In this document: in pieces, positions 2,860 through 26,332 of the stretch
How the letters are laid out: each line of letters begins with the position of its first letter
How positions within the stretch are numbered: position 1 is the first letter of the stretch
Source of the DNA: Magnetospirillum molischianum DSM 120
GTDB lineage: Bacteria; Pseudomonadota; Alphaproteobacteria; Rhodospirillales; Magnetospirillaceae
NCBI RefSeq assembly: GCF_000294655.1
Contig: NZ_CAHP01000032.1
Coordinates: 1 to 62,024, forward strand
Direction of reading: 5' to 3'
Length of the DNA stretch: 62,024 nucleotides
Position numbers and translations under genes: made by a program
The notes under the pieces: generated by a model
Told to the model about the DNA's origin: nothing
The model's input: the letters and a program-made list of their open reading frames with translations, nothing else
The model's database searches: none

Positions 2860-3441
2860 GCGCTCAGACGAAGACCGCCGACGAAGGTGGTAGTTTTCCA
2901 ATGCCCATGCGGCACCGGCGCCCGGCACCGCTCGCCGCGAGGGGCACGCCCGCGGAGCCTCGCCATCTTGGTCGAGGCTCCGGTCTCGTCGATGAAGACT
3001 AGGCGCTCGGGATCAAGCTCCGGCTGGAGATCGAACCACTCATGTCGCCGCCGCAGAACGTCGGGCCGTTGCTGCTCGCTGGCGTGCGTCCGTTTTTTTG
3101 AAGGTCATGTCGTGGCGGTCCAGCAGGCGCCATACGCTGCTCGGGGCGATCTTGCCCCCGTGTACCGCTTCCAGGTGGGCCGCGATCTCGGCCAGGGTGA
3201 TGTCGGGAGTCTGCTCTACCAGCCCCAGGATCTCTTCGGCCAACGCCTCCATCCGGTGCGAATGACGGTCGCCGCCACGCGGCCTCGACACGGCGTGTCC
3301 TTCCGATCGCCAGCGGCTCACCCATTTGATTGCTGTCGAGGCAGCAACCCCGAACCGCTTCGCCGCCGCGCGGCATGATTGACCGCTCTCGACCGCCGAA
3401 ATCAGACGCTGCCGAAGATCCGTGGAAAGGGATGTCGCCAT
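2856..3441 (-). pseudogene. IS630 transposase, N-terminal ORF, frameshifted (copy B)
   Basis: The start MATSLSTDLRQRLISAVESG parallels copy A. Near 3089 the sequence reads gtgcgtccg where copy A has gtgcgccg: one inserted T. The frame breaks after DMTFKKT, and the first catalytic Asp region (FIDETG) sits out of frame. The adjacent run of seven T bases is the same length in both copies, so the event is an insertion beside the run rather than slippage within it. Confidence 0.8.
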
Positions 3442-4759: not shown

Positions 4760-6706
4760 ATGGCTCTTGTGAAGAAATCCGGCGTGGCCGCCAAGCCAGC
4801 GGCGGCGACCAGCCGTGGTCTTGATGACGATGCTGGCGTTGCTGGTGTCGGTAACTCATCTCGATTAGTTGCCGAGGCTCAGAAACGAAAAGCCAGGACG
4901 TTTGCCCGCCAGCAAAAGGTCGCTGAACGGGTTGCCGCCGCCACCTCGGAACTCGCCAGCGGAATCGCCGAGGCGACCAGTGCGGCAGAGGAACTGCGCA
5001 AGGCATCCGACCAAATCGCGGCTGGTGCCGAGGAGGCAGCCAACGCCGCCCAGGAATCACTGAAAGCGGTCAGTCGCAGCACGATTCTCATCGCGACCGG
5101 CAAGGAAAGCGCTGACAACACGGTGAGCAAGACCGAGGCGCTGCAAACCATGGTGATCGATGTCGGCCGTCAGATCGGCAACTCGATCAGTGCCATCGCG
5201 CGGGCGTCCGAGCGCCAGGAGACATCAGTCCGGATGGTCAAAGAACTGGAACAGCAGGCCCAGACCATCAGTGACGTCGTTAAAGCCGTCGCCCGGATCG
5301 CCGACCAAACCAATTTGTTGGCACTGAATGCCGCGATCGAAGCGGCGCGGGCCGGTCAGCATGGCAAGGGATTTGCCGTCGTCGCCGACGAGGTTCGTAC
5401 CCTCGCCGAAACCAGTGAGAAGTCCGCCCGCGACATCCAAGAACTGATCGTACAGATTCAGAAGGATGTCAAAGCCATCGCCGAGGGGATCACGGCCTCT
5501 GCCCTCGCCGCCCGCGAAGAAGTCGAGAAAGGTCGCCAGGTCACCGAGTCTCTGGAGGTCATTCGCCAGGAAATGGCCGATGTCATCGTCGGGTCGCGCG
5601 AGATCGCCAAGTCCAACGATGAATCCGCCGCCGCCGCCAAAGAGGCGATGAAGGGCGCCGAGGTCATCGCCGCTGCCGCCGAAGAACAGGGTGCCGCCTG
5701 TCAAGAAGCAAGCAAGACCGTTGAGCAGCAATCGCTGGCCCTGCTTCAAAGCGAACAGGCAGCGCAGGAACTGTCGGAACTGGCCGACGAGTTGAAGAAT
5801 GCCACCGATATCGGCAAAAGCGCTGAAGAGGTTGCTTCCGCCGCTGAGGAGCTGTCCAGCGCGGTCGAAGAAATCAACCGGGCCGCAGCCCAGATCATGA
5901 CGGCCTTGGAGCAGATCAACAAAGGCTCGCAGCAACAGGCCGCCGCAACTCAACAATCCTCCGCCGCCATCGCCCAGATCGAACGCAGTGCACTTCTCGC
6001 ACAGCAACGGTCACAGCAATCGGTAGAAAAGGCCACCTCGATCGCCGAGATGCTCGACCGGAACCGCAAGATTGTCGATGCCCTGATCGAAGGGGTCGGC
6101 AGATCGGTCGAATCCGGCCGCCAGAGCCGCGACCAGATCGTCGCCCTGGAACAGATCAGTCGCCGTATCGACAAAATTGTCGATGCCATCACCACCGTGT
6201 CGATCCAGACCAACATGTTGGCGGTCAACGGTTCGGTCGAAGCCGCTCGTGCCGGTGAGTTCGGTAAGGGCTTTGCCGTGGTTTCAACCGACATCCGCAA
6301 CCTGGCCCGCGATTCGGCGGAAAACGCCGACCGGATCAAAGACACTGTGAAAGCGATTCAGGATCAGATTGTCGCGGTTCGCTCCGACCTCAGCGAAATC
6401 GCCGAAGCCGCCGCTCTCGAAGTTGAAAAGAACCGGGCAACCTCCGCCAGTCTTGAAGTGATCGGCACCGAGACAGCTCAGGTTCTGAAAGGCAACTACG
6501 AAATCTTGAGTGGTGCCGCTGAAATCACAAAGGGAGTCAAGGAGGTACAGACTGCCGTCGAGCAGGTTGCCGCCGCCGCCCAGCAGGCCAACCGTGCGTC
6601 GAGCGAAGCCTCGATTGCCGCCAAGGAGCAAGCCAAGGGAGCGGAAGAACTTGCCGCCGCCATCGAGGAGATCGCTTCCCTAGCCGACGAATTGCAGGCC
6701 GGCTGA
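4760..6706 (+). CDS. Soluble double-headed methyl-accepting chemotaxis protein (DosM-like)
   Basis: This is a 648-aa chemoreceptor with no transmembrane helix and no recognisable ligand-binding domain. It carries two complete coiled-coil signalling modules. The first hairpin tip is near residues 178-228 ([18 protein letters not shown], then [16 protein letters not shown]) and the second near 475-528 ([18 protein letters not shown], then [16 protein letters not shown]). Heptad-rich Ala/Glu/Gln segments with possible methylation sites (EE/QQ pairs) separate them. In Vibrio cholerae a receptor with two signalling tips, DosM, stabilises cytoplasmic arrays made of two facing CheA/CheW baseplates; this layout suggests the same job. 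What it senses is not visible, so input probably comes from a partner. It is the first gene of the locus, 29 bases before the CheW gene. Confidence 0.9.
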
Positions 6707-6735
6707 CGGCTTGAGCTCCAGCGGAGGAAACATCC

Positions 6736-8319
6736 ATGACAGCTCTTGCCGACCCCGAGGGTGACGGCCTGAACGGTACGGACCACCCCCAGGGAGGGGA
6801 ACCCGGCCGGGGCGATGCACGCCAGTTCGTTATCTTTCACGTCCAGGCAGAAAGCTTTGCCGTCGCCTTGTCCGATGTCCAGGAAATCATCCGCATGCCG
6901 GACGTCGTTCGGGTACCGATGAGTCCAGGCGCTTTGGAAGGACTAGCCAATCTGCGCGGCACGGTTCTTCCCGTGGTCAACCTTCGTCACGCGTTTGGTT
7001 TCACTCAAACGGCACATGACGATTCCACCCGCGTCGTCGTGCTTGATCTGGGGCGACCGGTCGGGATGGTGGTCGATCGGATGGCCAACGTTGTCACCGT
7101 CGAGGCCAGCAGTATCGAACCGGCTTCCAGCATCCAGGGCACCATTGATACCGATCTTTTGACCGGCATGATTAAAGCAGACGACGGACAATCGATGGTG
7201 ATGATCCTGGATGCGGGCCAAGTCATTCGCCGCGAGTTCAAGGATCTGGCGAACCGTGCCGAGACTCTGGGCAGCACCACTCAAGCCACGACCAGCGTTC
7301 ATCGCAACGAAGACAAGGATGTCGAAACCGCAACCGACGAAGATCAGTTGGTCAGCTTTGAGGTCGCGGAACAGGAATATGCTTTTCCAATCGAGCAGGT
7401 GCAGGAAATCGTGCAGATGCCCGATAGCGTCAGCCATATCCCCAATGCGGCGTCACACGTCCTTGGGGTGATCACCCTGCGCAACCGGCTGCTACCTCTG
7501 GTGTCGCTCCGCGAGATGTTCGGCCTGCCCGGAACCACACTGAGCGAGGCCAACAAAGTCGTGGTGGTATCGCTGGGAGGTGGGCTGTCGGTCGGGGTGG
7601 TGATGGACAGCGTAAAGGAGGTTCTGCGCGTCAACCGCTCGGTGATCGATCCGATGCCAAGCCTGCTGTCGCAGGATCAGAGCCTAAGCGACATCCAGTC
7701 GATCTGTCGCCTGCAAGACGGCAAACGGCTGGTGTCGGTGTTGTCGGCGGAACGGATGTTCAACGCCACCGACCTGCGCAAAGTGATCGCAAACAACGAC
7801 GACGAGGCGGGCATGCAGTCGGGCGAGACGGATGAAGACGCCAGAACGGTCGAGGTCGATGACGAGGAACAGTTCGTCGTCTTTCGGCTGATGGACGAGG
7901 AATACGGCGTTCCCATCGATGCGATCCAGGAAATCGTCCGGGTTCCAGAGGAATTGACCCGCGTACCGAAGACACCCGCTTTCATCGAGGGAGTCATCAA
8001 CCTGCGCGGTGTGGTGCTGCCGGTCGTCGATCAGCGCCGCCGCTTCGGATTGAGCGGGATCGACCGCAACGACCGTCAACGAATCATGGTGTTCACGATC
8101 AGAGGCATCCGCACGGGCTTCATCGTCGATTCGGTGTCGGAGGTGATGCGCATCCCCGCCCGCTTCATCGGCGCGGCGCCCGACCTGTCGGAAGAACAGC
8201 GCCGCCTGATCCGTCGCGTTGCCAATCTGGAGCATCTGAAGCGGATGATCCTGCTGTTGGAAGTGACCCAATTGCTGAACGTGCAGGAACTGGATGTGTT
8301 AAGCGGAGACGCCGCATAA
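6736..8319 (+). CDS. Triple CheW-domain scaffold protein
   Basis: This 527-aa protein is built of three CheW domains: about residues 30-160 (FVIFHVQAESFAVALSDVQE), 190-345 (LVSFEVAEQEYAFPIEQVQE) and 375-515 (FVVFRLMDEEYGVPIDAIQE). Acidic linkers separate them. Each domain has the typical LANLRGTVLPVVNLR-like core (second copy: ITLRNRLLPLVSLR). CheW couples receptors to CheA, so a three-headed version could bridge several receptor or kinase contacts and set array geometry. The ATG follows CAGCGGAGG. Fused CheWs occur in several alphaproteobacterial chemosensory clusters, but three in one chain is unusual. Confidence 0.92.
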   Translation: MTALADPEGDGLNGTDHPQGGEPGRGDARQFVIFHVQAESFAVALSDVQEIIRMPDVVRVPMSPGALEGLANLRGTVLPVVNLRHAFGFTQTAHDDSTRVVVLDLGRPVGMVVDRMANVVTVEASSIEPASSIQGTIDTDLLTGMIKADDGQSMVMILDAGQVIRREFKDLANRAETLGSTTQATTSVHRNEDKDVETATDEDQLVSFEVAEQEYAFPIEQVQEIVQMPDSVSHIPNAASHVLGVITLRNRLLPLVSLREMFGLPGTTLSEANKVVVVSLGGGLSVGVVMDSVKEVLRVNRSVIDPMPSLLSQDQSLSDIQSICRLQDGKRLVSVLSAERMFNATDLRKVIANNDDEAGMQSGETDEDARTVEVDDEEQFVVFRLMDEEYGVPIDAIQEIVRVPEELTRVPKTPAFIEGVINLRGVVLPVVDQRRRFGLSGIDRNDRQRIMVFTIRGIRTGFIVDSVSEVMRIPARFIGAAPDLSEEQRRLIRRVANLEHLKRMILLLEVTQLLNVQELDVLSGDAA

Positions 8320-8373
8320 CGCACTTATTCGCCAATCCGAGCAACGGGACCAAGCGACGGAGTGTGGTGATAC

Positions 8374-9498
8374 ATGATAAAAGTCCTGGTCGTTGACGAT
8401 TCTGCCCTGATGCGCAAGCACATGACACAAGTGCTTGAAGGCGCGGGAGATTTCGAGGTGATGACGGTCCGCAACGGGGCCGAGGCGCTCGATCTTCTCG
8501 AACGGTTCGACCCCGACGTCATCACCCTTGATGTCAACATGCCAGAAATGGACGGCATCACCTGTCTGGCCAATATCATGGCCCGACGGCCCAAGCCGGT
8601 GGTGATGGTGTCGTCTCTGACCGAAGAAGGGGCCGAGGTAACGCTTCAGGCGATGAGTCTGGGCGCGGTGGATTTCGTCCACAAGCCCGGCGGCACCATC
8701 TCGCTCTCGATCGACCAGATTCATTACGACCTGTTGACCAAGGTCCGCGCCGCCGCCAAGGCGCGAGTGCGCCGCTCGATTGGCCTGCGCCAGCGTCTGG
8801 AGACCCACCAACGCGGACGATCCGCCACGTCCACCCCCAGCCACAAGACACTTGCCCCCCTGCCGCGCGGCAAGATGGGCATTGTGTTGATCGGCGTTTC
8901 CACTGGCGGCCCCAGCACGCTGGAGGAGATTCTTCCGGTACTTCCTGCCGATTTCCCTTGGGCGGTGCTGGTCGCTCAACACATGCCCGGCAGTTTCACC
9001 GGCGTTTTTGCCCGCCGCCTCAACGATCTGTGCCAAATCCCGGTGGTCGAAGCCTTCCGCCAGACTCCGATCGAACCCGGAACGGTCTATATCGCCAAGG
9101 GCGATGCCGATCTGGTCGTGCTAAGACGTGGTACGGGATTCTGCGCCGCGCCCGTTCCCTCGTCAAAAGACTTTCTGTGGCATCCCAGCGTTCACCGGAT
9201 GGTCGCCAGCGCCGTCGATGTGGTGCCGATCGACCGGATGATCGCCGTCCAATTGACTGGCATGGGCGATGACGGTGCCGAAGCGATGGCCGAACTCCAT
9301 CGCCGCGGAGGCCGCACCATCGCCCAGGATGCCGCTTCGTCCATCGTGTTTGGCATGCCGAACGAACTGATCAAGCGCGGCGGTGCCGATCTGGTGATGC
9401 CAGCGGACCGAATTGGCGACCAACTGATTCAATGGCTGTCAGCCGAACCTCAATCGAGAAAGGAGGCTGGTCATGGCGCTCATAAATGCAGGGAATAG
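8374..9498 (+). CDS. cheB: CheB protein-glutamate methylesterase/deamidase
   Basis: This 374-aa enzyme removes methyl groups from receptor glutamates. The N-terminal receiver has the acidic pair in VVDDSA, phosphoacceptor D53 in TLDVNMPEMDG and the conserved Lys in VDFVHKPGG. A linker leads to the esterase domain with the catalytic Ser in GVSTGGPST, His in AQHMPGSFT and Asp in GMGDDGAEAM. All signature residues are present. It lies after the CheW gene, and its last 26 bases overlap the HEAT-protein gene, indicating coupled translation. Confidence 0.95.
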   Translation: MIKVLVVDDSALMRKHMTQVLEGAGDFEVMTVRNGAEALDLLERFDPDVITLDVNMPEMDGITCLANIMARRPKPVVMVSSLTEEGAEVTLQAMSLGAVDFVHKPGGTISLSIDQIHYDLLTKVRAAAKARVRRSIGLRQRLETHQRGRSATSTPSHKTLAPLPRGKMGIVLIGVSTGGPSTLEEILPVLPADFPWAVLVAQHMPGSFTGVFARRLNDLCQIPVVEAFRQTPIEPGTVYIAKGDADLVVLRRGTGFCAAPVPSSKDFLWHPSVHRMVASAVDVVPIDRMIAVQLTGMGDDGAEAMAELHRRGGRTIAQDAASSIVFGMPNELIKRGGADLVMPADRIGDQLIQWLSAEPQSRKEAGHGAHKCRE

Positions 9499-10108
9499 AA
9501 GCAAAACTCGCAAGACCGATACCACGCCGTCGCCCCAACCGACGAAAACCCTGGAAACCCTGCTGGAGGAACTCGATTCGGACGATGTTGGCCTCCGTCG
9601 CCGTGCCGCCCGCGATCTTGCCGATTTTCCCGAGGCAGTCCCGGCTCTGTGCCTTCGAGTTGCAACAGAAACCGCCCTGAGCGTGCGCACCGTGCTGTTT
9701 ACCGCCCTGATCCGCATGCGCTCGCCATCGGTGGTCGCCGGACTGGTGCCCTATCTCCGTTCCGAAGATGCCGGATTGCGCAACGCGGTGATCGAGGCGT
9801 TGCAGGATATGCCCGAGGAAGTTGCCCCGGTCATGGATGAATTGCTGGCCGATCCCGATAACGATGCGCGTATCTTCGCCGTTAATATCCTGAGCGCGTT
9901 GCCACATGCCAATGCCCCGCACTGGCTGGTTCAGGTGATTGACACCGATCCCCATGTCAACGTCTGCGCGGCTGCGGTCGATTGCCTGGCCGAGGTCGGC
10001 GATATTGCCGCAGTTCCACATCTTGAAAATCTAAGTCGTCGCTTTGCCGACCATCCCTTTATGCAATTCGCCGTCACAACGGCCATTCGCAGGATCAACG
10101 GGGAGTGA
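9473..10108 (+). CDS. HEAT-repeat protein of the chemosensory locus
   Basis: This 211-aa protein consists of about five alpha-helical HEAT-like repeats after a short basic N-terminus. Examples are LEELDSDDVGLRRRAARDLA, VVAGLVPYLRSEDAGLRNAV, and a later repeat ending DCLAEVGDIAAVPHL. Such repeats form curved protein-binding solenoids; no catalytic motif is visible. The start has a strong ribosome site (AAAGGAGG), sits inside the 3' end of cheB, and its stop overlaps the cheR start (GTGA). A role as adaptor or allosteric partner of CheB/CheR, or in linking the array to another complex, is inferred from position only. Confidence 0.85.
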   Translation: MALINAGNRSKTRKTDTTPSPQPTKTLETLLEELDSDDVGLRRRAARDLADFPEAVPALCLRVATETALSVRTVLFTALIRMRSPSVVAGLVPYLRSEDAGLRNAVIEALQDMPEEVAPVMDELLADPDNDARIFAVNILSALPHANAPHWLVQVIDTDPHVNVCAAAVDCLAEVGDIAAVPHLENLSRRFADHPFMQFAVTTAIRRINGE

Positions 10109-10983
10109 CGGCCGTGGCGGCATTGATAAAACCCAAGGAGCTTCCAAATCCTATTTCGGAGGAGGAATACGCAAAATTCTGCGAATTCTTTTATCGAAAA
10201 ACTGGAATTCTTTTCACGGAGAAGAAAAGATACTTCGTAGAAAGGCGGATCAACGATAGAATAAATAAGACAAATTCCAAAGATTTCCGAGAATATTTCG
10301 GATTGATCCGCTTCCAGGCCTGCGGCGAGGAATTGCAACATCTCGTCAACGTCATGACCGTCAATGAGACCTATTTCTTCCGCGAAGACTATCAGTTCGA
10401 TGCCTTGGTGAAGGGAATTCTACCGGAAATCGCCCGAACCAAACGTCCCGGCGATCCGATCCGCATCTGGTCTCTCCCCTGCTCGACCGGCGAAGAACCT
10501 TACTCGATCGCGATCTACATCCTCGACCGCTGGCGACAGTGCGACGAATACGACATTGAGATTTTGGCTTCGGACATCGACAGCCGGGTTCTGAATGACG
10601 CCAGACAAGGCATTTATAACGAGCGGGCGATCCATCGCCTGTCCGCCGAAGAGCGGACTCGGTTCTTCGTCCATCTGGGACCGGATCGCTTCCAGATCCG
10701 CGAGGAAATACGGGGATCGATCGAATTCTCGCTGATGAATATCGCCGACCCGCCGCAGATGAGCCGGTTTCGCAACATCGACCTGATCTTCTGCCGCAAC
10801 CTGCTGATCTATTTCGACGACGTAAGCCGCCGTCAGGCAGTCGAGACGATGTACGAATGCCTGGTACCGGGGGGGCTGATCTGCCTCGGACATTCCGAAA
10901 GCATGAGCCGGATGTCCTCGCTTTTCCGCCCCAGAAAGTTTGCCGACACGATTGTTTATCAGAAGCCAACCCATGGCGAATGA
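10105..10983 (+). CDS. cheR: CheR protein-glutamate O-methyltransferase
   Basis: This 292-aa enzyme methylates receptor glutamates using S-adenosylmethionine. The N-terminal helical domain (EYAKFCEFFYRKTGI) precedes the Rossmann-type domain with the SAM-binding motif WSLPCSTGEEPYS and later FRNIDLIFCRNLLIYFD. The length is usual for the family. The proposed GTG start overlaps the HEAT gene stop; a second GTG nine bases on would give MAALIKPK. It forms the adaptation pair with CheB for the soluble receptor, whose Glu-rich helices are the obvious substrate. Confidence 0.95.
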   Translation: MTAVAALIKPKELPNPISEEEYAKFCEFFYRKTGILFTEKKRYFVERRINDRINKTNSKDFREYFGLIRFQACGEELQHLVNVMTVNETYFFREDYQFDALVKGILPEIARTKRPGDPIRIWSLPCSTGEEPYSIAIYILDRWRQCDEYDIEILASDIDSRVLNDARQGIYNERAIHRLSAEERTRFFVHLGPDRFQIREEIRGSIEFSLMNIADPPQMSRFRNIDLIFCRNLLIYFDDVSRRQAVETMYECLVPGGLICLGHSESMSRMSSLFRPRKFADTIVYQKPTHGE

Positions 10984-10991
10984 GGACGCGC

Positions 10992-11372
10992 ATGAGCATG
11001 AAGAAAATCCTTGTCGTCGATGACGGCATCACCATGCGTCTGTTCTATCGCGAAGTGCTGGAAGGAGCCGGCTTCGAGGTCGAGGAGGCAGCCAACGGAG
11101 TCGAGGGACTCGAACGTGCCCTGCTCGGCGGATTCGACCTGATGGTCGTCGATATCAACATGCCGAAAATGGACGGTTATGAAATGGTCCGCCAAGTCCG
11201 CGGCGACCCGGCCTTGCGTGCGATTCCGGTGGTGACGGTCAGCACCGAGGAAAAGGATGAGGACGTCCTTAAAGCCTACACAGCCGGCGCCAATTTCTAC
11301 CTGACCAAGCCGGTTATCCCCGGCGATCTGATTGAAACAGTGCGATTGCTGACTGGGGTCGCGACACAATGA
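10992..11372 (+). CDS. CheY-like response regulator (receiver 1)
   Basis: This single-domain receiver of 126 aa has the acidic residues in VVDDGI, phosphoacceptor D54 in VVDINMPKMDG, the conserved Thr/Ser in VVTVSTEE and the Lys in FYLTKPV. It immediately precedes cheA and overlaps its start by four bases, so it is likely the main phospho-acceptor of this CheA. Two in-frame ATG codons six bases apart are possible starts. It has no output domain, so it acts by protein contact. Confidence 0.92.
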   Translation: MSMKKILVVDDGITMRLFYREVLEGAGFEVEEAANGVEGLERALLGGFDLMVVDINMPKMDGYEMVRQVRGDPALRAIPVVTVSTEEKDEDVLKAYTAGANFYLTKPVIPGDLIETVRLLTGVATQ

Positions 11373-13954: not shown

Positions 13955-14205
13955 TGCCGATAAGGATTGAGCACAATCTGGTGATCTTCGACGGCATTTG
14001 TTCAGTCGAAGAGGCCCTACCTTTGCTTGAACACCTGCGCGAGCACCGGGAAACCGAGATCGATCTTAAATCTTGCACACATTTGCACACCGCCCTGCTC
14101 CAAACGCTGGCGGCATTTTCTCCACAGCACATCATTCCACCGGACGAATCGACCTTGGCCTGCTGGGTCATGCCGGTGATTGTCCGCGCCGGTAAGGAGA
14201 AATAA
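13954..14205 (+). CDS. Small STAS-like protein after cheA
   Basis: This 83-aa protein has the beta-alpha pattern of an anti-sigma-factor antagonist (STAS) domain: a hydrophobic strand NLVIFDGI, a helix, then EIDLKSCTHLHTALLQTLAA in the position of the usual D-L-S-x-V-x-x-x-D-S-[ST]-G loop. The usual Ser is a Thr or His here, so phosphorylation is uncertain. The ATG overlaps the cheA stop (TGATG). Its place between the chemosensory half and the receivers, in a locus that later encodes RsbR and RsbS, makes it a candidate physical link; that link is inference. Confidence 0.6.
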   Translation: MPIRIEHNLVIFDGICSVEEALPLLEHLREHRETEIDLKSCTHLHTALLQTLAAFSPQHIIPPDESTLACWVMPVIVRAGKEK

Positions 14206-14345
14206 GACCTCCCTCTCCTTCCCTTGCGGACGCCCCAAAGAGTCAGTCGAACCCTTGATTATTACCTTCGGGATAACGAACTACGTTGGTATGGAGCGAC
14301 ACATCGCATCCAATACCCATCGTCAGGGGTCCGGGAGTTTCCGCC

Positions 14346-14720
14346 TTGTCCAAACAAATCATGATTATCGACGATTCCCCCACCATGCTGATGAGCCTGA
14401 ACGGCATTCTGTCGAAGGCCGGTCTGACCGTGGTTCAGGCCCGGAATGGTGAAGAGGCCCTCGCGATTCTCAAGGGGGGGAGCAAACCCGATCTGATCGT
14501 CACCGACCTAAACATGGGGGCGATGAACGGGATCGAGTTGATCCGCAATATCCGCAAGTTGTCGGGGTTGCAATTCACTCCGACAATCGTGCTGACCACA
14601 GAATCGCAACAGGATCGCCGGACCGAGGCCAAAGCGGCCGGAGCGACCGGATGGATCGTAAAGCCGGTCGAAGCCGACGCCCTACTCCAGGTTGTGCGGC
14701 AACTCGTTCCGGGGGCATGA
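14346..14720 (+). CDS. CheY-like response regulator (receiver 2)
   Basis: This single-domain receiver of 124 aa starts [14 protein letters not shown] at a TTG preceded by GGGAG, with phosphoacceptor Asp in [11 protein letters not shown], Thr in VLTTES and Lys in WIVKPVEA. It is closely similar to receiver 3 downstream (both share GATGW[IL]VKPV and LLQVVRQ), so the two arose by duplication. It sits one base before the membrane-anchored receptor/CheZ-like gene. An upstream ATG would add 20 residues that do not look like a receiver. Confidence 0.88.
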
Positions 14721-14721
14721 G

Positions 14722-15951
14722 ATGACCTCGGCCCGGACAGCGGCTCTCGACTGGCGGTCCTGCGCCGGGGCGTGCGTGGTCGCCTTGATCGCCGTCCTGG
14801 CGGCCTGGCTGGGCGGAGTTCCTCTTGTCTCTAGCACCGCCGCATTGATTCTGGTCGCGACGATGATCGCGACGGGTCTGACGATCGCCATTCTACGCCA
14901 TTTCGAACCGGCGCGACCGCCGCAGCCGGGAACCGTTGCGAAACCGCTTCCGTCTGCCCCCAGCCTGATCGAGACCCCGAACTATTCCTCGGAGGTACCG
15001 TCACAGACGCGGGACGGTCTCGCGATGCTCGGCCGCCAGATCGATAGCTACCGCCCGCTGTTCAATAAGGTCAAAGTCGAAGCGACCGCGATCAACGAGG
15101 AAACGGAAACGGCGGCGACCGGAATTATCCTCCGGCTGCAATCTGTCGATCATGCCATTTCCGATCTGCTTGAATTCCTGGCCAGTTCCAACTCAAACGA
15201 CAAAGTAATCGCTTTGATCGAGCGAACCGAAGCCCACCTCGATTCAAACCGCCGCCTTATCAACGATTTTGTTATCCGGCGCGGTAACGATATCGAAGAA
15301 AGCCGGGTCCGGTTTCAAGACATCGAGGAAGTCACGGCCAGACTGGCAAAGACTATCGGCACCATCAGAACAATCGCTCGTCAAACCAATATGCTGGCCC
15401 TGAACGCCACGATCGAATCCGCTCGTGCGGGAGACGCTGGCAAGGGGTTTGCCGTCGTCGCGGGTGAGGTCAAGCTTCTGGCCCGACAATCGGACAAAGC
15501 CGCCGTCGAAATCAGCCGCGGGCTTGATTCACTGTGTCAGGCAATCGCCGCCAGCGTTGACTTGCTGATCGAAAAGCGGATCGAGCGAGAAAGAAGCGAA
15601 CTGGACACCATTTCCGATGCAATCGGAGAGTTGACTGAAAACATAGAACGTTTGGTCTCGCACCAACGCGATGTCCTCGAAAAGGTTCACGGTGAGAGCG
15701 AACGCATTGCGCAGCCTATCCTACAATTGATCGGGTCGATTCAATTCCAGGATATCACCCGCCAGCGCCTTGAAAGCCTTGCCGGAGAGTTCGATCAGGC
15801 CACTATTCATCTTGGATTGATCGAGGACTCGATGAGCGATCTGTCCAAAGGCAATCATGTTCCTGAATTAACCAACCTTATCACCTTGACGGCCACATCA
15901 CGTTCACCGGTATCGCGACAACCGGGCGATCTGGCAATCGAACTTTTCTAG
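14722..15951 (+). CDS. Membrane-anchored MCP-like protein with CheZ-like motif
   Basis: This 409-aa protein has two hydrophobic helices near its N-terminus ([20 protein letters not shown] and a second from residue about 40) with almost no loop between them, so it cannot be a periplasmic sensor. A short MCP signalling hairpin follows ([30 protein letters not shown]). The last third contains [16 protein letters not shown], in which D344 and Q348 have the D-x-x-x-Q spacing of the CheZ phosphatase site (QDLTGQ in E. coli). The chain ends IELF, recalling the short CheY-binding tail of CheZ. It may place a CheY phosphatase at the membrane or array. Homology to CheZ is inferred from the motif only. 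Confidence 0.75.
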
Positions 15952-15966
15952 GGGGAGGACGCCGCG

Positions 15967-16338
15967 TTGAAACGAATCCTGATTATCGACGATTCCGCGA
16001 CCATCCTTCTCAGCATGGAAGGTGTGCTGGCCAAAGCCGGTTATGCAATCGACAAAGCCAGCAGCGGCGAGCAGGCGCTGACGATGCTGAACGACGGGCT
16101 CCGCCCCGATCTGATCATCACCGATCTATACATGGGGGCAATGACCGGAACAGACCTGATCCGTCTTGCCCGACAAGTGACAGGATTGCGTTTCACGCCG
16201 ATGTTGATGGTCACCACCGAATCTCAGCAAGACAAACGGATTGATGCCAAAACCGCCGGAGCGACCGGCTGGCTGGTCAAACCCGTAGCCCCGGCGGCTT
16301 TGCTGCAAGTGGTGCGGCAGGTCCTCCCTGAACGGTGA
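15967..16338 (+). CDS. CheY-like response regulator (receiver 3)
   Basis: This 123-aa receiver begins MKRILIIDDSATILL at a TTG after GGGGGAGG. It has the phosphoacceptor Asp in ITDLYMGAMTG, Thr in MVTTESQQD and Lys in GWLVKPVAP. It is a paralogue of receiver 2. Its stop overlaps the following CheZ-like gene, repeating the receiver plus CheZ-like pairing seen one gene earlier. Confidence 0.9.
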   Translation: MKRILIIDDSATILLSMEGVLAKAGYAIDKASSGEQALTMLNDGLRPDLIITDLYMGAMTGTDLIRLARQVTGLRFTPMLMVTTESQQDKRIDAKTAGATGWLVKPVAPAALLQVVRQVLPER

Positions 16339-17057
16339 CGGCCATGACCATGTTCCATCCGATAAAATTCTGTTGGAACCACCCCCGAGCCACCGCCCTG
16401 GCGGCGGCGGCACTCGTCTCTGGCCTCGGTGTCTGGCTCCACGGGATCTTGCCGCCGATCGCCGGATGGGGATTGGCCATGGCGGAGATCGGCCTGGGGA
16501 TTGGACTGGCCCGCCTGCTGTGGCCCCAGACCGAGCTTGTCGCCCGGTTGAATCAGAGCGAGAAAACAGCGCAACGAATCGCCGCCGAACTCGCTCACTA
16601 CCAGACCTTCACCGACATCCTGCGCCGACAGGGCGAGATGGTCACCGCCATCACAGAATCGGCTGCCATCACCCTGATCGACGGATTGCGAAATGTCGAT
16701 GCTGGAATAGATCGGATCGTCGCCGATTGCTCCGGCAACCTTAACCAGAATGCCGAAGAGATCGAGGAACTGTCGCGACTGATGATCCTGCTGATGGGCA
16801 GCATCCAGTTCCAGGACATCACTCGTCAGCAGATCGAACAAATGGCGCGGATGTCCGTGATGGTAGACCAGCATATCGCACTGGCTCATGCGGCGCTGGC
16901 CGATCTGTCCCGCCAGTTCGACACGACGTCACTGGCGGACAAGCTCGATCAGGTCTTTGCCGATTACGTCATGGCCGCACAGCGTGACAGCCACCGCGCC
17001 GCGCGCGGCGAAAGCACGGATCGGGAGGGCATCGGCGCGACAGTCGAACTGTTCTGA
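16335..17057 (+). CDS. Membrane-anchored CheZ-like protein
   Basis: This 240-aa protein has one or two N-terminal membrane helices (TALAAAALVSGLGVWLHGIL and GWGLAMAEIGLGIGLARLL), then a long helical hairpin. It lacks an MCP tip. The motif [20 protein letters not shown] places D161 and Q165 in the D-x-x-x-Q arrangement of the CheZ active site, and the C-terminus ends ATVELF. Its length is close to CheZ (about 214 aa) plus a membrane anchor. The start could be the GTG overlapping the upstream stop or the ATG nine bases later. It is a likely phosphatase for one or more of the four receivers, by motif and neighbourhood rather than proven family membership. Confidence 0.7.
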   Translation: MTAMTMFHPIKFCWNHPRATALAAAALVSGLGVWLHGILPPIAGWGLAMAEIGLGIGLARLLWPQTELVARLNQSEKTAQRIAAELAHYQTFTDILRRQGEMVTAITESAAITLIDGLRNVDAGIDRIVADCSGNLNQNAEEIEELSRLMILLMGSIQFQDITRQQIEQMARMSVMVDQHIALAHAALADLSRQFDTTSLADKLDQVFADYVMAAQRDSHRAARGESTDREGIGATVELF

Positions 17058-17092
17058 TCCAACCAGTCCCCATTCGGATAAGGAGCGAGGGC

Positions 17093-17470
17093 ATGGCCTC
17101 CATTCTGTTAGTTGACGATGTGATGGTGGTGCGCATGACCCTGCGTAAGTTCCTTGAGCGCGGAGGCCATACCGTCCAGGAGTGTGACAATGGATTGGAA
17201 GCGATCGGACACCTCAATTCGGGCCGCTTCGACGTCGTACTTACCGACATATGGATGCCAGGCGGTAACGGAGTCGATCTGATCCGCACACTGAAAGAGA
17301 CCGGGATCAAGACAAGAGTGATCGCCATTACCGGGGGCGCGCCACGGGCACCACAGGAATATTCGATGGAAGAAGCCCAAAAAGCCGGGGCCGACGGAGT
17401 TTTGCTAAAGCCGGTAACCAAGGACGAATTGCTGTCGGCCGTTGCCGCCGTCATGGAGCTACGGACATAG
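17093..17470 (+). CDS. CheY-like response regulator (receiver 4)
   Basis: This 125-aa receiver has [10 protein letters not shown] at the N-terminus, phosphoacceptor Asp in [14 protein letters not shown], Thr in [10 protein letters not shown] and Lys in [11 protein letters not shown]. It belongs to a different subgroup from receivers 2 and 3 (longer beta4-alpha4 loop). It follows AAGGAG and lies just before rsbR, at the junction of the chemosensory and stressosome halves. It could be the target of the terminal histidine kinase or of CheA. Confidence 0.9.
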
Positions 17471-17496
17471 GCCGCGACGATCCGGGAGGAGATCAG

Positions 17497-18345
17497 ATGA
17501 GAGATATTTCCGAAATCCTGAACCGTAATCAGGATAGTCTGCGCACCGTCTGGTTCGAACGAATTTCCGAGTTCGCCAAGGACCGGATCAGCCAGCCGCA
17601 GATCGCACGCCTGATCAAGGCCGAGGCAGGTGACTTCCTGGATGCTTTGTGCCGCGCCATCGAAGCGGGCGGCGACGACATCGACGGTCCGGCCTATGTT
17701 GACCTCCTCGACCTTGCCACCTCCCTCAGCTCCGCCAGAGCGCGCGACGGCTTCTCTCCGACCGAAACCGCCGGTTTCGTTCTAACGCTGAAGGACGCGA
17801 TGATCCCGATGCTGGTGCGGGAATTAGGCGACAGCCCCCCGAGGTTGGCGTCCCAACTGGCGACAATCAGTAGCATCGTCGATCATCTCGCGCTCGCGAC
17901 CTTCAATGCCTATCTGAAGGCGCGCGAAAGCATCATAGAACGGCAAAGCCGGGCGATCCTCGACCTTTCGACCCCAACCTTGCGGGTATGGCAGCACATC
18001 GTACTGATGCCGCTGGTGGGAATCATCGACACCCAACGGGCGCAAAAGGTGATGGAAGATCTTCTGACCGCAATCGCGCGCGAGGAAGCTCATGTCGCCA
18101 TCCTCGACGTCACAGGTGTGCCGGTAATCGACACACGGGTTGCCCTTCACCTGACCAAAACCGTCAGCGCCGCAAGTATGCTGGGAGCAAAGGTAATCCT
18201 GACCGGAATCAGCCCGGATGCGGCCCAGACCCTGGTCAAGCTCGATGTAGATCTCGGCAGCCTGAAGACCTGCGGCACGTTACGGGCCGGTCTGTCGGAA
18301 GCGTTGCGCCATATCGGTCAACGTATTGTCCCAATCGGAGGATAA
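17497..18345 (+). CDS. rsbR: RsbR-type stressosome scaffold/sensor protein
   Basis: This 282-aa protein has an N-terminal helical sensor-type region (about residues 1-155, RsbRD-like) joined by a helix to a C-terminal STAS domain (160-275). The STAS part matches Bacillus RsbR closely: [35 protein letters not shown], and [13 protein letters not shown]213 in VIDT is at the site phosphorylated by RsbT in RsbR proteins. RsbR and RsbS form the large cytoplasmic stressosome that sequesters RsbT. It is preceded by GGGAGGAG and followed four bases later by rsbS. Its N-terminal domain is probably the sensory or docking part. Confidence 0.92.
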
Positions 18346-18349
18346 GTCG

Positions 18350-18760
18350 ATGCGGGTCCCTGTTCTACGCCTCGGACATATTCTTCTGACTTCGGTACAG
18401 TCCGATCTGACCGATGAACAGGCCATGACGTTACAGGGAGACATTCTGGAGCTTCTCCGCGACGGTAAAGCCGATGGGATCGTGATCGACATTACTTCTG
18501 TCGATGTCGTCGATTCTTACATGGCCCGAGTTCTCAACGAGACGGCACGAATGGCCCGAATCATGGGCGGAGAAGTCGTGTTGACCGGAATGCAGCCCCT
18601 CGTCGCCTTGACCTTGGTCGAAATGGGACGCGAGATCATCGGCGTTGAAACCGCCCTGGATCTCGAAAGCGGAGTTGAACGACTAAAATCCTCGCTGGCG
18701 CGGCGAGATCGCGACCGAAACGACACACGCGCGAATCCAGGTGACCGATATGGCGAATGA
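18350..18760 (+). CDS. rsbS: RsbS-type STAS protein
   Basis: This 136-aa protein is a single STAS domain with the RsbS hallmarks IDITSVDVVDSYMARVLNET and VLTGMQPLVALTLVEMG. S56 in VVDS corresponds to the serine phosphorylated by RsbT (S59 in Bacillus). The ATG at this position follows a perfect GGAGG, better than an upstream alternative. The C-terminus carries a polar tail (RRDRDRNDTRANPGDRYG) longer than in Bacillus. In the family, RsbS is the core stressosome brick whose phosphorylation releases RsbT. Confidence 0.94.
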   Translation: MRVPVLRLGHILLTSVQSDLTDEQAMTLQGDILELLRDGKADGIVIDITSVDVVDSYMARVLNETARMARIMGGEVVLTGMQPLVALTLVEMGREIIGVETALDLESGVERLKSSLARRDRDRNDTRANPGDRYGE

Positions 18761-19157
18761 AACCGACATCACGGTCGAAGTTCACAGTCAGGAAGACATC
18801 ATCACCGCCCGCCAATCCGGGCGCGAACTGGCGCGGCAATCTGGATTCGGCACCGTCGATCAGACCCGGCTCGCCACCGTTATTTCCGAATTGGTCCGCA
18901 ACGCATTGGTCTATGCCGGCGGTGGCACGTGCCGGATTTATAGCGATATTTCCGACAGTCAGCGCACTCTTCATTTGGTCGTTTCGGACGAAGGGCCGGG
19001 CATTGTCGATGTCCCCCGAGCGCTAGAACCAGGATTCTCAAGCGGTGGCGGCCTCGGCCTCGGCCTACCTGCGGTACGGCGGTTGATGGACGATATGACA
19101 ATCGACACTCATCCGACCGGCACGGTGATCCACGCCAGAATGACCAGGAAGCGATAA
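18750..19157 (+). CDS. rsbT: RsbT-type serine/threonine kinase (first copy)
   Basis: This 135-aa GHKL kinase shows strong RsbT identity: DIITARQSGRELARQSGFGT, N box ISELVRNALVYAG, DEGPGI, and PGFSSGGGLGLGLPAVRRLM. RsbT phosphorylates RsbR and RsbS and, once released, binds a partner through its RsbU-like domain. The ATG overlaps the rsbS end by 11 bases with AGGTGA upstream. A GTG nine bases earlier is an alternative start. Confidence 0.93.
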   Translation: MANETDITVEVHSQEDIITARQSGRELARQSGFGTVDQTRLATVISELVRNALVYAGGGTCRIYSDISDSQRTLHLVVSDEGPGIVDVPRALEPGFSSGGGLGLGLPAVRRLMDDMTIDTHPTGTVIHARMTRKR

Positions 19158-19159
19158 TT

Positions 19160-19564
19160 GTGGAAAAAACGATCAATTTCAGCGTGCAGAACGAATTGGA
19201 CGGAACCGAGGTGCGTCTGTACGCACGCCAAATGGCCCAATCACTGGGCTTGCCGCATGCTCGGGTTTATCGGTTGAGCACGGCGATATCTGAACTGGTC
19301 AACAATTTGGCGTTCCACACCGTCAAAGGCGGCATCGTCCACCTGACCCCGATCGAAGATTGCGGGAAAATAGGAATTGAGGTTGTCACCGAGGATGACG
19401 GCCCCGGTATCGACAATATCGAGCTCGCGATGCAAGACGGATTCTCGACGAATGGAGGTTTAGGCAGTGGACTTCCCGGAATCCAGCGGCTGATGGACGA
19501 GTTCCACCTCGAATCGAAGCTGGGATCAGGAACCCGAGTTGTGGCAAGGATTTGGGATCGATGA
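19160..19564 (+). CDS. RsbT-type serine/threonine kinase (second copy)
   Basis: This is a second complete RsbT-like ATPase of 134 aa, two bases after the first: RLYARQMAQSLGLPHARVYR, N box ISELVNNLAFHT, EDDGPGIDNIE and QDGFSTNGGLGSGLPGIQRL, then DEFHLESKLGSGTRV. It has all ATP-binding boxes. It is clearly paralogous but not near-identical to the first copy, so the pair is an old duplication that may have split the roles of phosphorylating the stressosome and activating the partner. A GTG (or the TTG two bases earlier) starts it. Confidence 0.9.
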   Translation: MEKTINFSVQNELDGTEVRLYARQMAQSLGLPHARVYRLSTAISELVNNLAFHTVKGGIVHLTPIEDCGKIGIEVVTEDDGPGIDNIELAMQDGFSTNGGLGSGLPGIQRLMDEFHLESKLGSGTRVVARIWDR

Positions 19565-20145
19565 TCATCGGCAGCGCGATACGGCCTATCGGCGGAGAAT
19601 TTCACTGCGGTGATGCCGCGAAATGGTGGATGGACGGGCCGAACTGGACGCTGTGTCTGGCCGATGGTCTGGGCCATGGTCGCGATGCCGCCGATGCGGC
19701 CCGCGCCGCGTTGACACATGCCGAACTGTGCCGCTCGCTGCCACCCGCCGCAATGCTGGAGGAAATCGACCGGAAGATCCGCGATACCCGCGGCTGTGCA
19801 ATGACGATAATCCAGCTCGATTCAGAGGCCAGGACCTTGTGCCATGCCGGAATCGGCAACGTCCGCGCCGGCCTGTTCGGTGAGCGCTCTTTCCGCTTCG
19901 AGGGAACTCCGGGAATTGTCGGCGGCAGAATCCGCCAGCCTCAGACGGTCGAAGCCAACTGGATGAATGGCGATGTCCTGGTGATATGGACCGATGGACT
20001 CGCCACCTCTTTGACTCTGGCCGAGGATTGCCTGCGGCTGAAAGCCGACCCTGATCGCCTGGCCCACCGCCTCCTGGTCCGTTTCGAAACGCCTCGGGAC
20101 GATGCCGGTGTCCTGTGCTGCTACCTGGAGAGCGACGGAGCATGA
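19561..20145 (+). CDS. rsbX: RsbX-type PP2C phosphatase
   Basis: This 194-aa SpoIIE/PP2C-type phosphatase is the size of RsbX. Metal-binding acidic motifs are visible: the Asp in HCGDAAK, ADGLGHGRDAADAAR, VIWTDGLA and ETPRDDAGVLCC. In stressosome modules RsbX dephosphorylates RsbR and RsbS and resets the complex. Its ATG overlaps the stop of the second RsbT gene (ATGA), and its own stop overlaps the kinase gene in the same way. It has no N-terminal RsbU-type domain, so it is the reset enzyme rather than an output phosphatase. Confidence 0.9.
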   Translation: MIIGSAIRPIGGEFHCGDAAKWWMDGPNWTLCLADGLGHGRDAADAARAALTHAELCRSLPPAAMLEEIDRKIRDTRGCAMTIIQLDSEARTLCHAGIGNVRAGLFGERSFRFEGTPGIVGGRIRQPQTVEANWMNGDVLVIWTDGLATSLTLAEDCLRLKADPDRLAHRLLVRFETPRDDAGVLCCYLESDGA

Positions 20146-21191
20146 ATGACGAATGCGCCGACGCTTATGCCGACCTGACCCGAACCTATGTCCTGGTCGG
20201 CGACGAATTGGCGCTAATCGCCATCGCCAGCCTTGGCCGCGATCTGGTCGCGGACGAAATCCCAATCGAGGAAATCGCCGGCCTGCATGAAGTGGCGATG
20301 CTCGGCTTGCTAGAGAGTTGCCCGACGGCGATGAATGAAGAGTCGGTGCACCGGGCCTCGACCTGTCTGGCCGAACTGATGATGTCGTTTTCGGGAGCGT
20401 TTCGCGAAAGAACAGAACTGCTCGAACGCGAAAAGGCACTGGAGCAGGAACGGGTCGAACGCGACCGTCAGCGTCGCGAGTCGCTCGGCCAGTTCGTCGG
20501 CGGCGTTGCGCACGAGATCAATAATTTACTGCAACCGATACAAGGGTTGGCGGAACTGGCGCTGGAAGATCACGACGAGAACAGCGAAATCAGCCAGTCT
20601 CTGCGGACTATTCTCGACTGCGCGGTTCAAGCCGCCGCCATCGTTCGCGGCATTCTGACCTATGTTCGCCAACAAACTCCAGTACCTCAACCGATCCGGC
20701 TCGGGTACGTGGTCGAACGCTGCGTCGGGTTCTTGCGTGCGGTCACTCTGCCCGGCCTCAGCATCGAGGTTTCCATTGCCAACCACGATGCCTTGGTCAT
20801 CGGCGACGACAGTGAGTTCACCCAAATTCTGATGAATTTGGTCAATAATGCCTTCCACGCCATGAACTACTCCGGGACGGTTGGCATCAGAGTCGATCTT
20901 CTGGCCGCATCGGGAGGAGTTGAGATGCCGAACGGCAACGAACAGGCTCCTCACGCCCGGTTAACCGTCACCGACCAAGGATGCGGCATGACGGACGACG
21001 TTCTCGCCCACGCCTTTGACCCATTCTTCACCACCAAGGGACCGGGCGAGGGAACTGGTCTCGGCCTCGCCATTGTGCGCGGCATCGTCCGCTCGTGGGG
21101 CGGCGAAGTGGTGATCGATACCGCTCCGGGCAAAGGAACCTCTATAATAATCCTTCTGCCCCTGATCGCCGCACCAGCCGCCTCTGCCTGA
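20142..21191 (+). CDS. Histidine kinase with RsbU-like N-terminal domain
   Basis: This 349-aa soluble kinase ends the locus. Residues 1-95 are helical and read like the RsbT-binding domain of RsbU: LGRDLVADEIPIEEIAGLHE aligns with a stretch of Bacillus RsbU containing EHQIPPEEIISIH, followed by LAELMMSFSGAFRE. A coiled coil (about 90-115) leads to the HisKA domain with H124 in GGVAHEINNLLQPI. The HATPase follows, with LMNLVNNAFHAM, TDQGCGM, DPFFTTKGPGEGTGLGLAIV and a C-terminal strand. There is no receiver or membrane segment. Position and docking domain suggest that freed RsbT controls this kinase. Its target regulator is unknown; receivers 1-4 are candidates. Confidence 0.85.
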   Translation: MNDECADAYADLTRTYVLVGDELALIAIASLGRDLVADEIPIEEIAGLHEVAMLGLLESCPTAMNEESVHRASTCLAELMMSFSGAFRERTELLEREKALEQERVERDRQRRESLGQFVGGVAHEINNLLQPIQGLAELALEDHDENSEISQSLRTILDCAVQAAAIVRGILTYVRQQTPVPQPIRLGYVVERCVGFLRAVTLPGLSIEVSIANHDALVIGDDSEFTQILMNLVNNAFHAMNYSGTVGIRVDLLAASGGVEMPNGNEQAPHARLTVTDQGCGMTDDVLAHAFDPFFTTKGPGEGTGLGLAIVRGIVRSWGGEVVIDTAPGKGTSIIILLPLIAAPAASA

Positions 21192-21437: not shown

Positions 21438-22394
21438 ATGGTCGTTCAGCATGGGTTCTGGGATATCGAGCATCGTCTGGCGGAATTATCGGCCGAGGGT
21501 GATCCACTGGAAAAGCTGTCGGCGACGGTGGATTTCGAGGTGTTCCGGCCGGTTCTGGAGCGGGCATTGCGGCGGCGGATCGATCCGGCGAAAGGCGGCC
21601 GTCCGGGCTTCGACGTCGTGCTGAAATTCAAAATGCTGGTGCTGCAGTCGCTGCACGGTCTGGCGCTCCAGCAGACCTCGTATCTGGTCCGCGACCGATT
21701 GAGCTGGATGCGGTTTTGTGGCCTTGGCCCAGGCGATGCGGTGCCGGATGCCAACACGCTGTGGGATTTCCGCGAGGCGTTGATCTCGGCCGGTGCCCTG
21801 GACGATTTATTCCAGCGCCTCGACCAGGCGATCGTTGCCGCGGGCTATCTGCCGATGTCGGGTCAGATTATCGATGCGACCCTGGTGTCCGCCCCGCGAG
21901 GCCGTAACACCGAAGCCGAGAAGAGCGAGATCAAAGCCGGTCGCATCCCCGAGGGTTGGAAATCGAAGCCCGCCAAACTGCGGCAAAAAGACCGGGATGC
22001 CCGTTGGACGGTGAAGTTCTCCAAGGGCAAGACAAAGGAGGATGGCACGCCTCAGGGCGATATCGCCATCCCGCACTTCGGCTACAAGAACCATATTTCG
22101 ATCGACCGCAAACACGGCATCATCCGCCGCTTCATCGTCACCGATGCCGCCGCTGCGGATGGCGCCCGCCTGCGTGAGGGGCTGATCGACCCGGCCACCA
22201 ACACCGCTTCCGATGTCTGGGCCGACACCGCTTATCGCTCCCAGGCCAACACTCGCCTCTTTACCGCCACATCGGCCGGTCTGCGCTGGTTTCCGGAAGT
22301 GTCCACCTCGCCAACGCGGCGGTCCGCAAGCAGAAGATCTATTCCAGAGATGGGATGGTTCCCCGCGAGGTGCTGCACGCCGTACGGCCAGTAG
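21438..22394 (+). pseudogene. IS5-family transposase, 3' truncated
   Basis: The N-terminal two thirds are an intact IS5-type transposase: LVRDRLSWMRFCGLGPGDAV, DANTLWDFREALI, GYLPMSGQIIDATLV, SKPAKLRQKDRDARWTVKFS, HFGYKNHISIDRKHGIIR and VWADTAYRSQANTR. After that the family's usual C-terminal block (IHRKK, HVEHVF and the catalytic Glu) is missing; the frame runs into unrelated repeat-like sequence. The element therefore cannot transpose by itself. It is related to, but different from, the IS5 fragment at 3535. Confidence 0.8.
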
Positions 22395-22613: not shown

Positions 22614-22749
22614 CCTTCGGTCGGTCCCTAGCCCGGATTATTCATCAGTTCGCGTAAAGATGCTGGCGGATGCAGCATAACCATCTGAAATCGTGTATGA
22701 TTCTGGTGTTCAAGCAAGACCACCACGATCACACGGAGTTGCATCCGCC

Positions 22750-26304: not shown

Positions 26305-26332
26305 ATTAGTCTGATCTCCCCGCTTTGGCCGG

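Follow-up and report, generated by a model that had tools for sequence, protein, structure and literature searches.

F9-class chemosensory systems are recognised by two hallmarks, a receptor with tandem signalling domains and a protein with three CheW domains (PMC9321776), and the F9 array of Vibrio cholerae has been imaged as a two-layered cytoplasmic plate, the function of which is described as elusive (PMC7534058; here and below, cited papers are represented by parts of their text). In those parts of PMC7534058 and PMC9321776 no F9 output is named. In Bacillus stressosome signalling, RsbT docks on the N-terminal domain of RsbU and activates RsbU (PMC12143880), and proteins carrying this domain (RsbU_N) have been described beside RsbX (PMC9237108, PMC12143880). 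Here, we describe a locus of Magnetospirillum molischianum DSM 120 in which genes of both kinds form a single row, at 4760-21191 of contig NZ_CAHP01000032.1; the whole stretch of 62,024 nucleotides that was analysed is called the window.

The first half of the row is, judging by its domains, an F9-class chemosensory system: the receptor has two MCPsignal domains, the CheW protein has three CheW domains, and CheA, CheB, CheR and CheY are all encoded. Because a double-headed DosM-like receptor and a triple CheW are the stated hallmarks, the array can be named as F9. It resembles V. cholerae cluster I (F9), which likewise has a double-headed receptor, triple CheW, CheA, CheB, CheR and CheY (PMC7534058, PMC9321776), but the gene cluster here continues into a full stressosome set and a kinase with an RsbU_N domain. 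The second half, on domain evidence of the same kind, is a complete RsbR-S-T-T-X stressosome set, with an RsbR that joins an N-terminal sensor to a STAS domain, a STAS-domain RsbS and RsbT kinase, all identified by Pfam and alignments. As in the RsbRST-RsbU-SigB pathway of Bacillus subtilis, an RsbT-docking N-terminal RsbU domain is found on the output protein (PMC12143880), although a histidine kinase replaces the PP2C phosphatase output and there is no sigma factor among the 19 genes. Gram-negative RsbRSTX systems (Vibrio vulnificus and others) share the R-S-T-X order and have signalling proteins downstream, some with RsbU_N (PMC9237108), with kinase/receiver or cyclic di-GMP output. Whereas that survey searched for a globin-coupled sensor, RsbR here has an RsbRD_N domain, there are two RsbT paralogues, and a chemosensory cluster is joined. 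A further parallel is the RsbT-controlled diguanylate cyclase of Moorella (cited in PMC12143880), a second-messenger enzyme with the RsbU N-terminal domain, comparable to one in the relative G106 discussed below, whereas the window carries a kinase as its only RsbU_N protein.

We propose, at a probability of about two in three, that the locus is one composite sensory unit in which array and stressosome would have a joint function, with an arm leading from RsbT through the histidine kinase to a single receiver, REC4. In this proposal gene content, recurrence and shared lineage are taken from the sequences, and the signalling steps are inferred.

Recurrence and lineage of the F9-rsb pairing

The earlier note raised the question of whether this gene order extends beyond one genome, and it does: F9 and rsb genes stand side by side in at least 11 genomes, comprising Alphaproteobacteria, one Gammaproteobacterium and one Anaeroferrophillacea metagenome-assembled genome (MAG). 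The order is thus not unique, and since the pairing recurs, a chance adjacency in a single genome was rejected. Among 317 genomes of the window's order, triple CheW is present in 15 and RsbRD_N in 11, and both are present in five, compared with 0.52 expected (hypergeometric P 4.6e-5, kinship ignored). In each of these five (G136, G106, G201, G202 and the source of the window) F9 and rsb genes adjoin one another in collinear order. RsbRD_N has no match in the remaining ten F9 genomes of this sample; in nine of them 4.5-10.8 kb after cheA is visible and holds no rsb gene, and in the tenth (G222) the contig ends early. It should be noted that the order-wide count of RsbR covers RsbRD_N only and misses RsbR with other sensors, and that for G148, one of the 11 RsbRD_N genomes, no further rsb gene was seen.

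A scan of named genomes, taken over the best 80 matches, yielded 28 F9 loci after 52 (L090-L141) had been set aside as weaker CheW matches. L089 was counted, though it is only partly F9-like (short triple CheW, no DosM match), and L088, which is the same contig as G151, a Telmatospirillum MAG from the same family group as the source genome, was counted once. Among the matches listed, 10 of the 28 F9 genomes have RsbS at E 1e-8 or better, and in five of these it adjoins F9, namely Methylobacterium sp. J-077, Aureimonas sp. Leaf427, Candidatus Contendobacter odensis (Gammaproteobacteria), the Anaeroferrophillacea MAG and Azospirillum halopraeferens. In a Chromatiaceae MAG 132 bases of the F9 contig remain beyond the match to MCP2, the second receptor-like (MCP-like) protein of the row, and RsbR starts 485 bases into another contig. 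In four of the ten RsbS genomes the rsb genes are nonadjacent: two have them on the F9 contig, at distances of 464 kb and 1.1 Mb, and two on other contigs. Five loci are cut off in or before cheA (L058, L062, L064, L070, L073), and neither RsbS nor RsbRD_N was found in their genomes.

Other searches started from the stressosome side. A class-wide search found RsbR in 14 of 385 genomes, of which only the window and G596 are F9-linked; the gene order of G596 is that of the window except for REC3-hyp240. In an order-wide sample around G596, RsbR (E 1e-60 or better) occurs in 9 of 397 genomes, and only G596 scored as the F9-linked type; G840, the sole one examined of the other eight, has no F9. 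A phylum sample covered 30 places, of which 11 were newly examined, three were already included and 16 were left out; the 11 new rsb loci show no F9 genes in their visible stretch, which is short for several (the contigs behind L248-L251 are short, and RsbR of L252 lies 268 bases from the contig start).

The pairing is seen in at least five arrangements and two or more classes. The rsb genes follow hyp240 and REC4 and precede MCP2 in G106, G136, G201 and G202; they follow MCP2 and REC4 in G596, J-077, Leaf427 and, with REC3-hyp240 in between, the window; they come directly after MCP2 in Contendobacter, after MCP2-kinase-REC-ParA in the Anaeroferrophillacea MAG and upstream of DosM in A. halopraeferens. 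Methylobacterium sp. J-077 also has a second rsb set, of another lineage, on another contig with no F9 genes beside it.

The linked stressosomes are also related to one another. A tree of RsbR and RsbS gathers 10 of the 11 F9-linked rows into a 12-member clade (bootstrap 100; approximate likelihood-ratio test, aLRT, 98), and in an enlarged tree the clade (aLRT 99) has 10 of 13 members F9-linked, compared with 1 of 24 outside it (Fisher P 8e-6, kinship ignored). The other clade members are L209 (the Chromatiaceae contig), L022 from G166, a genome with no triple-CheW match, and L249. L167, L219, L248 and L251 are in neither tree, and L165, L166, L168, L217 and L218 are only in the first. Across the ten clade loci, F9 and Rsb protein distances are correlated (Mantel r 0.84, with 0 of 20000 permutations as high), and r rises to 0.91 when the discordant Aureimonas is left out. 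Two F9 loci carry what are likely remnants of a lost block, to judge from their genes. In G210, which has F9 without rsb, a lone receiver between hyp240 and MCP2 nests among the REC4s of linked loci (98/90), and it is likely left over from an rsb block; downstream of MCP2, a Competibacteraceae MAG retains an RsbU_N kinase (31.5 bits), an incomplete RsbX-like match and a receiver. Its genome yielded no RsbS, and the locus is likely a second such remnant.

It could be argued that array and stressosome are simply signalling cassettes sharing a mobile island, with no joint function. Indeed, the window locus has transposase genes on both flanks, many transfers are reported in the history of F9 clusters (PMC9321776), and most F9 loci lack rsb. 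Nonetheless, the pairing persists through the arrangements and classes given above, all but one of the F9-linked stressosomes come from one lineage, and the nonadjacent stressosomes of F9 genomes (four of the ten with RsbS) all lie outside that lineage; we therefore regard mere neighbourhood as quite improbable. Because F9-linked stressosomes recur and, with one exception, form a lineage of their own, a functional association is well supported. Of the functional coupling proposed in the earlier note, it is this association that stands, on recurrence and shared Rsb lineage, and the narrower proposal, with RsbT release either fed by the array or gating its output, goes beyond what is shown here.

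Output kinase, receivers and candidate joints

The histidine kinase that ends the row carries an RsbU_N domain at 26.6 bits (Pfam cut-off, 25.5), and a profile of this domain finds one convincing copy in the source genome, the next match being at E 0.7. The profile was built from eight kinase N-termini (window, L156, L207, L208, L209, L210, L212 and L214) and run against 5827 open reading frames (ORFs) of the loci. It recovers the kinases of all ten clade loci, six of which are training rows; the non-training kinases of G136, G201, G202 and G106, together with a GGDEF-EAL protein of G106, match at E 1e-4 to 3e-8. It also matches the kinase of an rsb locus without F9 (L022, E 3e-23), the outputs of two other rsb loci (L166, L167), the kinase of L219, a contig chosen for its RsbU_N match, and, twice, one unrelated A. 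halopraeferens protein (E 0.002).

The receiver tree splits REC1 and REC2/3 from REC4, and REC4 groups with receivers that are fused to an RsbU_N kinase (G106, G136) or encoded next to one (support 98/94); REC4 as a CheA-type receiver was rejected on this basis. From this phylogeny two arms are inferred. Moreover, since the RsbU_N kinase offers a likely target for RsbT and REC4 stands apart from REC1-REC3, any coupling may lie downstream, in targets or phosphatases common to both arms, rather than between array and RsbT.

Other outputs are seen in relatives. In G106 the RsbU_N kinase has as its neighbour a PAS-GGDEF-EAL protein (L028, 12765-15083) that likewise begins with an RsbU_N-like domain, and therefore the pair of RsbT paralogues may act on two outputs in this genome. 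The kinase of Contendobacter precedes a PAS-GGDEF-EAL protein (L207, 3061-5181) that bears a chemoreceptor zinc-binding (CZB) domain and does not match RsbU_N. L067 and L068, which have F9 without rsb, encode a REC4-like receiver and ParA downstream of MCP2. In L067 a PAS protein comes next, in which a HisKA domain begins at the edge of the stretch; in such loci an accessory kinase may take other inputs.

As for the stressosome itself, RsbR is the only RsbRD_N match in the source genome. Ser55 of RsbS is invariant in 11 aligned rows, and Thr159 and Thr213 of RsbR are present in the window and kept in at least 90% of 13 rows; we take these residues to be equivalent to the Bacillus phosphorylation sites. 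The two RsbT proteins form two clades (aLRT 100, 12 rows each) and keep their N and G1 motifs in all ten loci of the RsbR-RsbS clade; they are named RsbT for their place in the gene order and their relationship to other R-S-T-X loci, no curated model being involved. RsbU phosphatase, RsbV, RsbW and sigma factor are all absent from the 19 products, the rest of the genome not having been searched, and a standard SigB cascade was rejected, as its lower parts are not among these products and the output is a HisKA kinase.

On these grounds the composite unit might work as follows. Stress acting on the RsbR-S core would lead RsbT1 and RsbT2 to phosphorylate the core and then leave it; freed RsbT would bind the RsbU_N domain of the kinase (20115-21191) and activate it, and the activated kinase would phosphorylate REC4. 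In a parallel arm, CheA would phosphorylate REC1-REC3, methylation by CheB/CheR would adapt the array, two CheZ-like proteins would drain phosphate from the receivers, and RsbX would reset the stressosome. The branches would probably meet at the level of receivers or phosphatases, although their downstream convergence is a tentative proposal, with the odds somewhat against it.

The predicted phosphatases are MCP2 and hyp240, which share a QFQD-x-T-x-Q motif. MCP2 (14692-15951) has QFQDITRQ and ends in IELF; hyp240 (16335-17057) ends in VELF, and its motif, with the Asp and Gln, is invariant in 12 rows. A protein with a Q-F/Y-Q-D motif, often terminated by ELF, is found downstream in 31 of 37 F9 loci with a visible cheA end, though in MCP2 of several relatives Arg replaces the motif Gln. 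In CheZ the catalytic Asp and Gln are four residues apart, and we assume that the shared motif resembles this active site. Neither protein matches the Pfam CheZ family, so the likeness is at the level of the motif, and hyp240 (and MCP2) can be regarded as a candidate CheZ-like phosphatase. A fold search with hyp240 was dropped, its predicted structure being too weak (mean predicted local distance difference test score, pLDDT, 64.8).

The other protein of interest is a STAS-like mini-protein encoded after cheA in 36 of 37 F9 loci with a visible cheA end (missing in L081, weak in L066). It has no Pfam match, and its AlphaFold2 model (pLDDT 91.7) found STAS proteins as its 28 best matches in the PDB, Mla chains among them being taken as MlaB by length; the best match has E 2e-3 and a template-modelling (TM) score of about 0.5, with none at E 0.001 or below. 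Its likeness to STAS proteins is therefore, on the predicted model, distant. An alignment of 32 rows shows an invariant His45, followed by a variable site with Thr, Ser, Ala or Gly. The mini-protein is a candidate joint between array and stressosome.

An alternative, along the lines of the earlier note, is a hierarchical coupling with one half in control of the other, whether array or stressosome. CheA-phosphorylated REC2/REC3 might act on RsbR, for instance, or freed RsbT might dock on the mini-protein beside CheA. The gene lies directly 3' of cheA, the nearest solved structures of its product include RsbV (from the RsbV/RsbW complex), SpoIIAA with SpoIIAB, and RsbS, and among curated models RsbT1 and RsbT2 match SpoIIAB, an anti-sigma factor, best, though far below the cut-off (48.1 and 47.3 bits against 135). 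However, the mini-protein also exists in F9 loci without rsb, which form the majority, and thus cannot have arisen for RsbT alone; its invariant His45 and variable next site are unlike a classical phosphorylated antagonist, and no feature pointing to receiver binding was found in RsbR. We consider control of one half by the other unlikely. We give still less credence to a bolder version, in which array and stressosome would be one physical super-assembly, the mini-protein a second dock for RsbT1/RsbT2, and stress-freed RsbT would reset the kinase output of the array.

Several observations weigh against the composite unit. Among the matches listed, rsb genes are adjacent in only 10 of the 42 distinct F9 genomes that the F9 query reached (15 + 27); the array can therefore do without the stressosome, which is an optional partner, and an obligatory F9-stressosome system was rejected. 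No F9 genes are visible next to two members of the Rsb clade, L022 (G166) and L249. F9 was the starting point from which several linked rows were reached, which introduces an ascertainment effect. A. halopraeferens (L213) has a long-branched stressosome that falls outside the clade, together with a kinase that carries PAS and lacks an RsbU_N match; this is possibly an independent pairing. The F9 tree scatters the linked rows, requiring eight changes (60 of 500 shuffles are as low), or seven without five cut-off or doubtful rows, so that a single origin of the linkage on this tree is not supported; the scatter is no evidence of clustering in itself and is compatible with one stressosome type having been lost or transferred repeatedly. 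Aureimonas takes discordant positions in the F9 and Rsb trees, and common descent alone can give the correlation between F9 and Rsb distances. The F9 tree places the Anaeroferrophillacea MAG next to a Nitrosomonadales MAG, so that transfer or MAG contamination is possible there. In the relatives' kinases Pfam RsbU_N is above cut-off in 2 of 10, below it in five and unreported in three (G136, G202, G106).

The gene row and its surroundings

The row consists of 19 genes, all on the plus strand, identified from Pfam scans and ORF coordinates (Table 1). The earlier note had listed them at the same coordinates, which the scans and the ORF list bear out, together with their identities, except that its "CheW" has three CheW domains and the HEAT-repeat gene had been overlooked. 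It had also described both halves as complete, in agreement with the chemosensory and RsbR-S-T-T-X sets found by Pfam; the catalytic motifs appear intact by eye.

Table 1. Features of the F9-rsb locus and its right boundary
Feature	Position	Strand	Basis
DosM-like double-headed soluble receptor	4760..6706	+	Pfam MCPsignal x2, no other Pfam family
CheW3, three concatenated CheW domains (F9 hallmark)	6736..8319	+	Pfam CheW x3
CheB, receiver + methylesterase	8374..9498	+	Pfam
HEAT-repeat protein, conserved in F9 loci, between cheB and cheR	9473..10108	+	Pfam HEAT_2
CheR methyltransferase	10105..10983	+	Pfam
REC1, single receiver, likely start near 10980-10998	10857..11372	+	Pfam Response_reg; REC1 clade
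CheA	11369..13954	+	Pfam Hpt, H-kinase_dim, HATPase_c, CheW
STAS-like mini-protein ("sm"), 83 aa	13954..14205	+	Alignment, predicted fold
REC2, F9 core receiver	14286..14720	+	Pfam; REC2/3 group
MCP2, MCP-like, hydrophobic N-terminus, likely start 14722	14692..15951	+	Pfam MCPsignal; hydropathy; motif scan
REC3, F9 core receiver	15967..16338	+	Pfam; receiver tree
hyp240, helical, weakly hydrophobic N-terminus	16335..17057	+	12-row alignment; low-confidence model
REC4, kinase-associated receiver lineage	17093..17470	+	Pfam; receiver tree support 98/94
RsbR, RsbRD_N + STAS	17497..18345	+	Pfam
RsbS, STAS, likely start 18350	18326..18760	+	Pfam; alignment with invariant Ser
RsbT1 switch kinase	18741..19157	+	Pfam HATPase_c_2; T1 clade; N + G1 motifs
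RsbT2 switch kinase, separate paralogue	19160..19564	+	Pfam HATPase_c_2; T2 clade
RsbX feedback phosphatase, SpoIIE family, likely start 19561	19552..20145	+	Pfam SpoIIE 36.2 bits
Histidine kinase with N-terminal RsbU_N, likely start 20142	20115..21191	+	Pfam RsbU_N, HisKA, HATPase_c
Transposase, right boundary, outside the system	21438..22394	+	Pfam DUF772/DDE_Tnp_1

Neighbouring ORFs overlap or are narrowly spaced, the widest gap being 80-155 bases (from 14205 to 14286, or to about 14361 if REC2 uses a later start codon). A consensus scan found no terminator-like site on the plus strand from 9342 to 21191, and hence none in the 14205-17500 join, in a scan whose 18 sites barely exceed background (15.6 in shuffles). 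The promoter scan gave five sites compared with 4.7 in shuffles, and Rfam at gathering thresholds gave tRNA only. The stressosome might instead act on how the array is expressed or assembled and not on how it signals, so that the F9 array is switched on under stress; no DNA-binding domain is among the Pfam matches of the 19 products, and this alternative seems to us improbable.

The receptor, whose hydropathy shows no hydrophobic stretch of membrane-span length, is 68-74% identical to those of closer F9 loci and 48-51% to those of G204, G208 and G222. A ParA-like ATPase (Pfam AAA_31/CbiA), present in many F9 loci, was not found in the window locus. CheW-domain genes are also present on other contigs of the source genome, and F9 is therefore not its sole chemosensory system; contigs C8 and C14 each show a pair of CheW matches of identical score, which suggests a repeated che region or an assembly overlap.

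Transposase genes or fragments lie on both flanks of the locus, at 2494-2928 (minus strand), 21438-22394 and 22693-24070 (both plus strand), and on the right flank a DDE_Tnp_1_4 transposase is split over two overlapping frames. Farther left, a 333-residue protein (1125-2126, plus strand) matches the catalytic domain of telomere resolvases (ResT/TelK) at E 1.3e-28; such enzymes belong to replicons with hairpin ends. To the right, an [FeFe]-hydrogenase large subunit is encoded beside a fused NuoE/NuoF-like subunit (24379-28057, minus strand), adjoined by an MCP gene at 28418-30109.

Implications for F9 arrays

In the open-access literature, judged by title and abstract, we found no paper that links a stressosome to F9 or to any other chemosensory array. 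The parts are of known kinds, and their conserved combination is, provisionally, undescribed in the searchable open-access literature. Since the same pairing occurs in distant bacteria, the stressosome is a likely partner for the F9 array. A recurring and apparently co-inherited partnership of this kind provides a testable candidate pathway for F9 arrays of elusive function, which can be pursued in named genomes such as Methylobacterium sp. J-077, Aureimonas sp. Leaf427 and Azospirillum halopraeferens DSM 3675. If the composite unit is real, two giant cytoplasmic sensory complexes would act as one, with an output running from RsbT through a histidine kinase to a single receiver. Should even the improbable super-assembly hold, F9 would be a stress-gated array, which would answer what F9 arrays are for.

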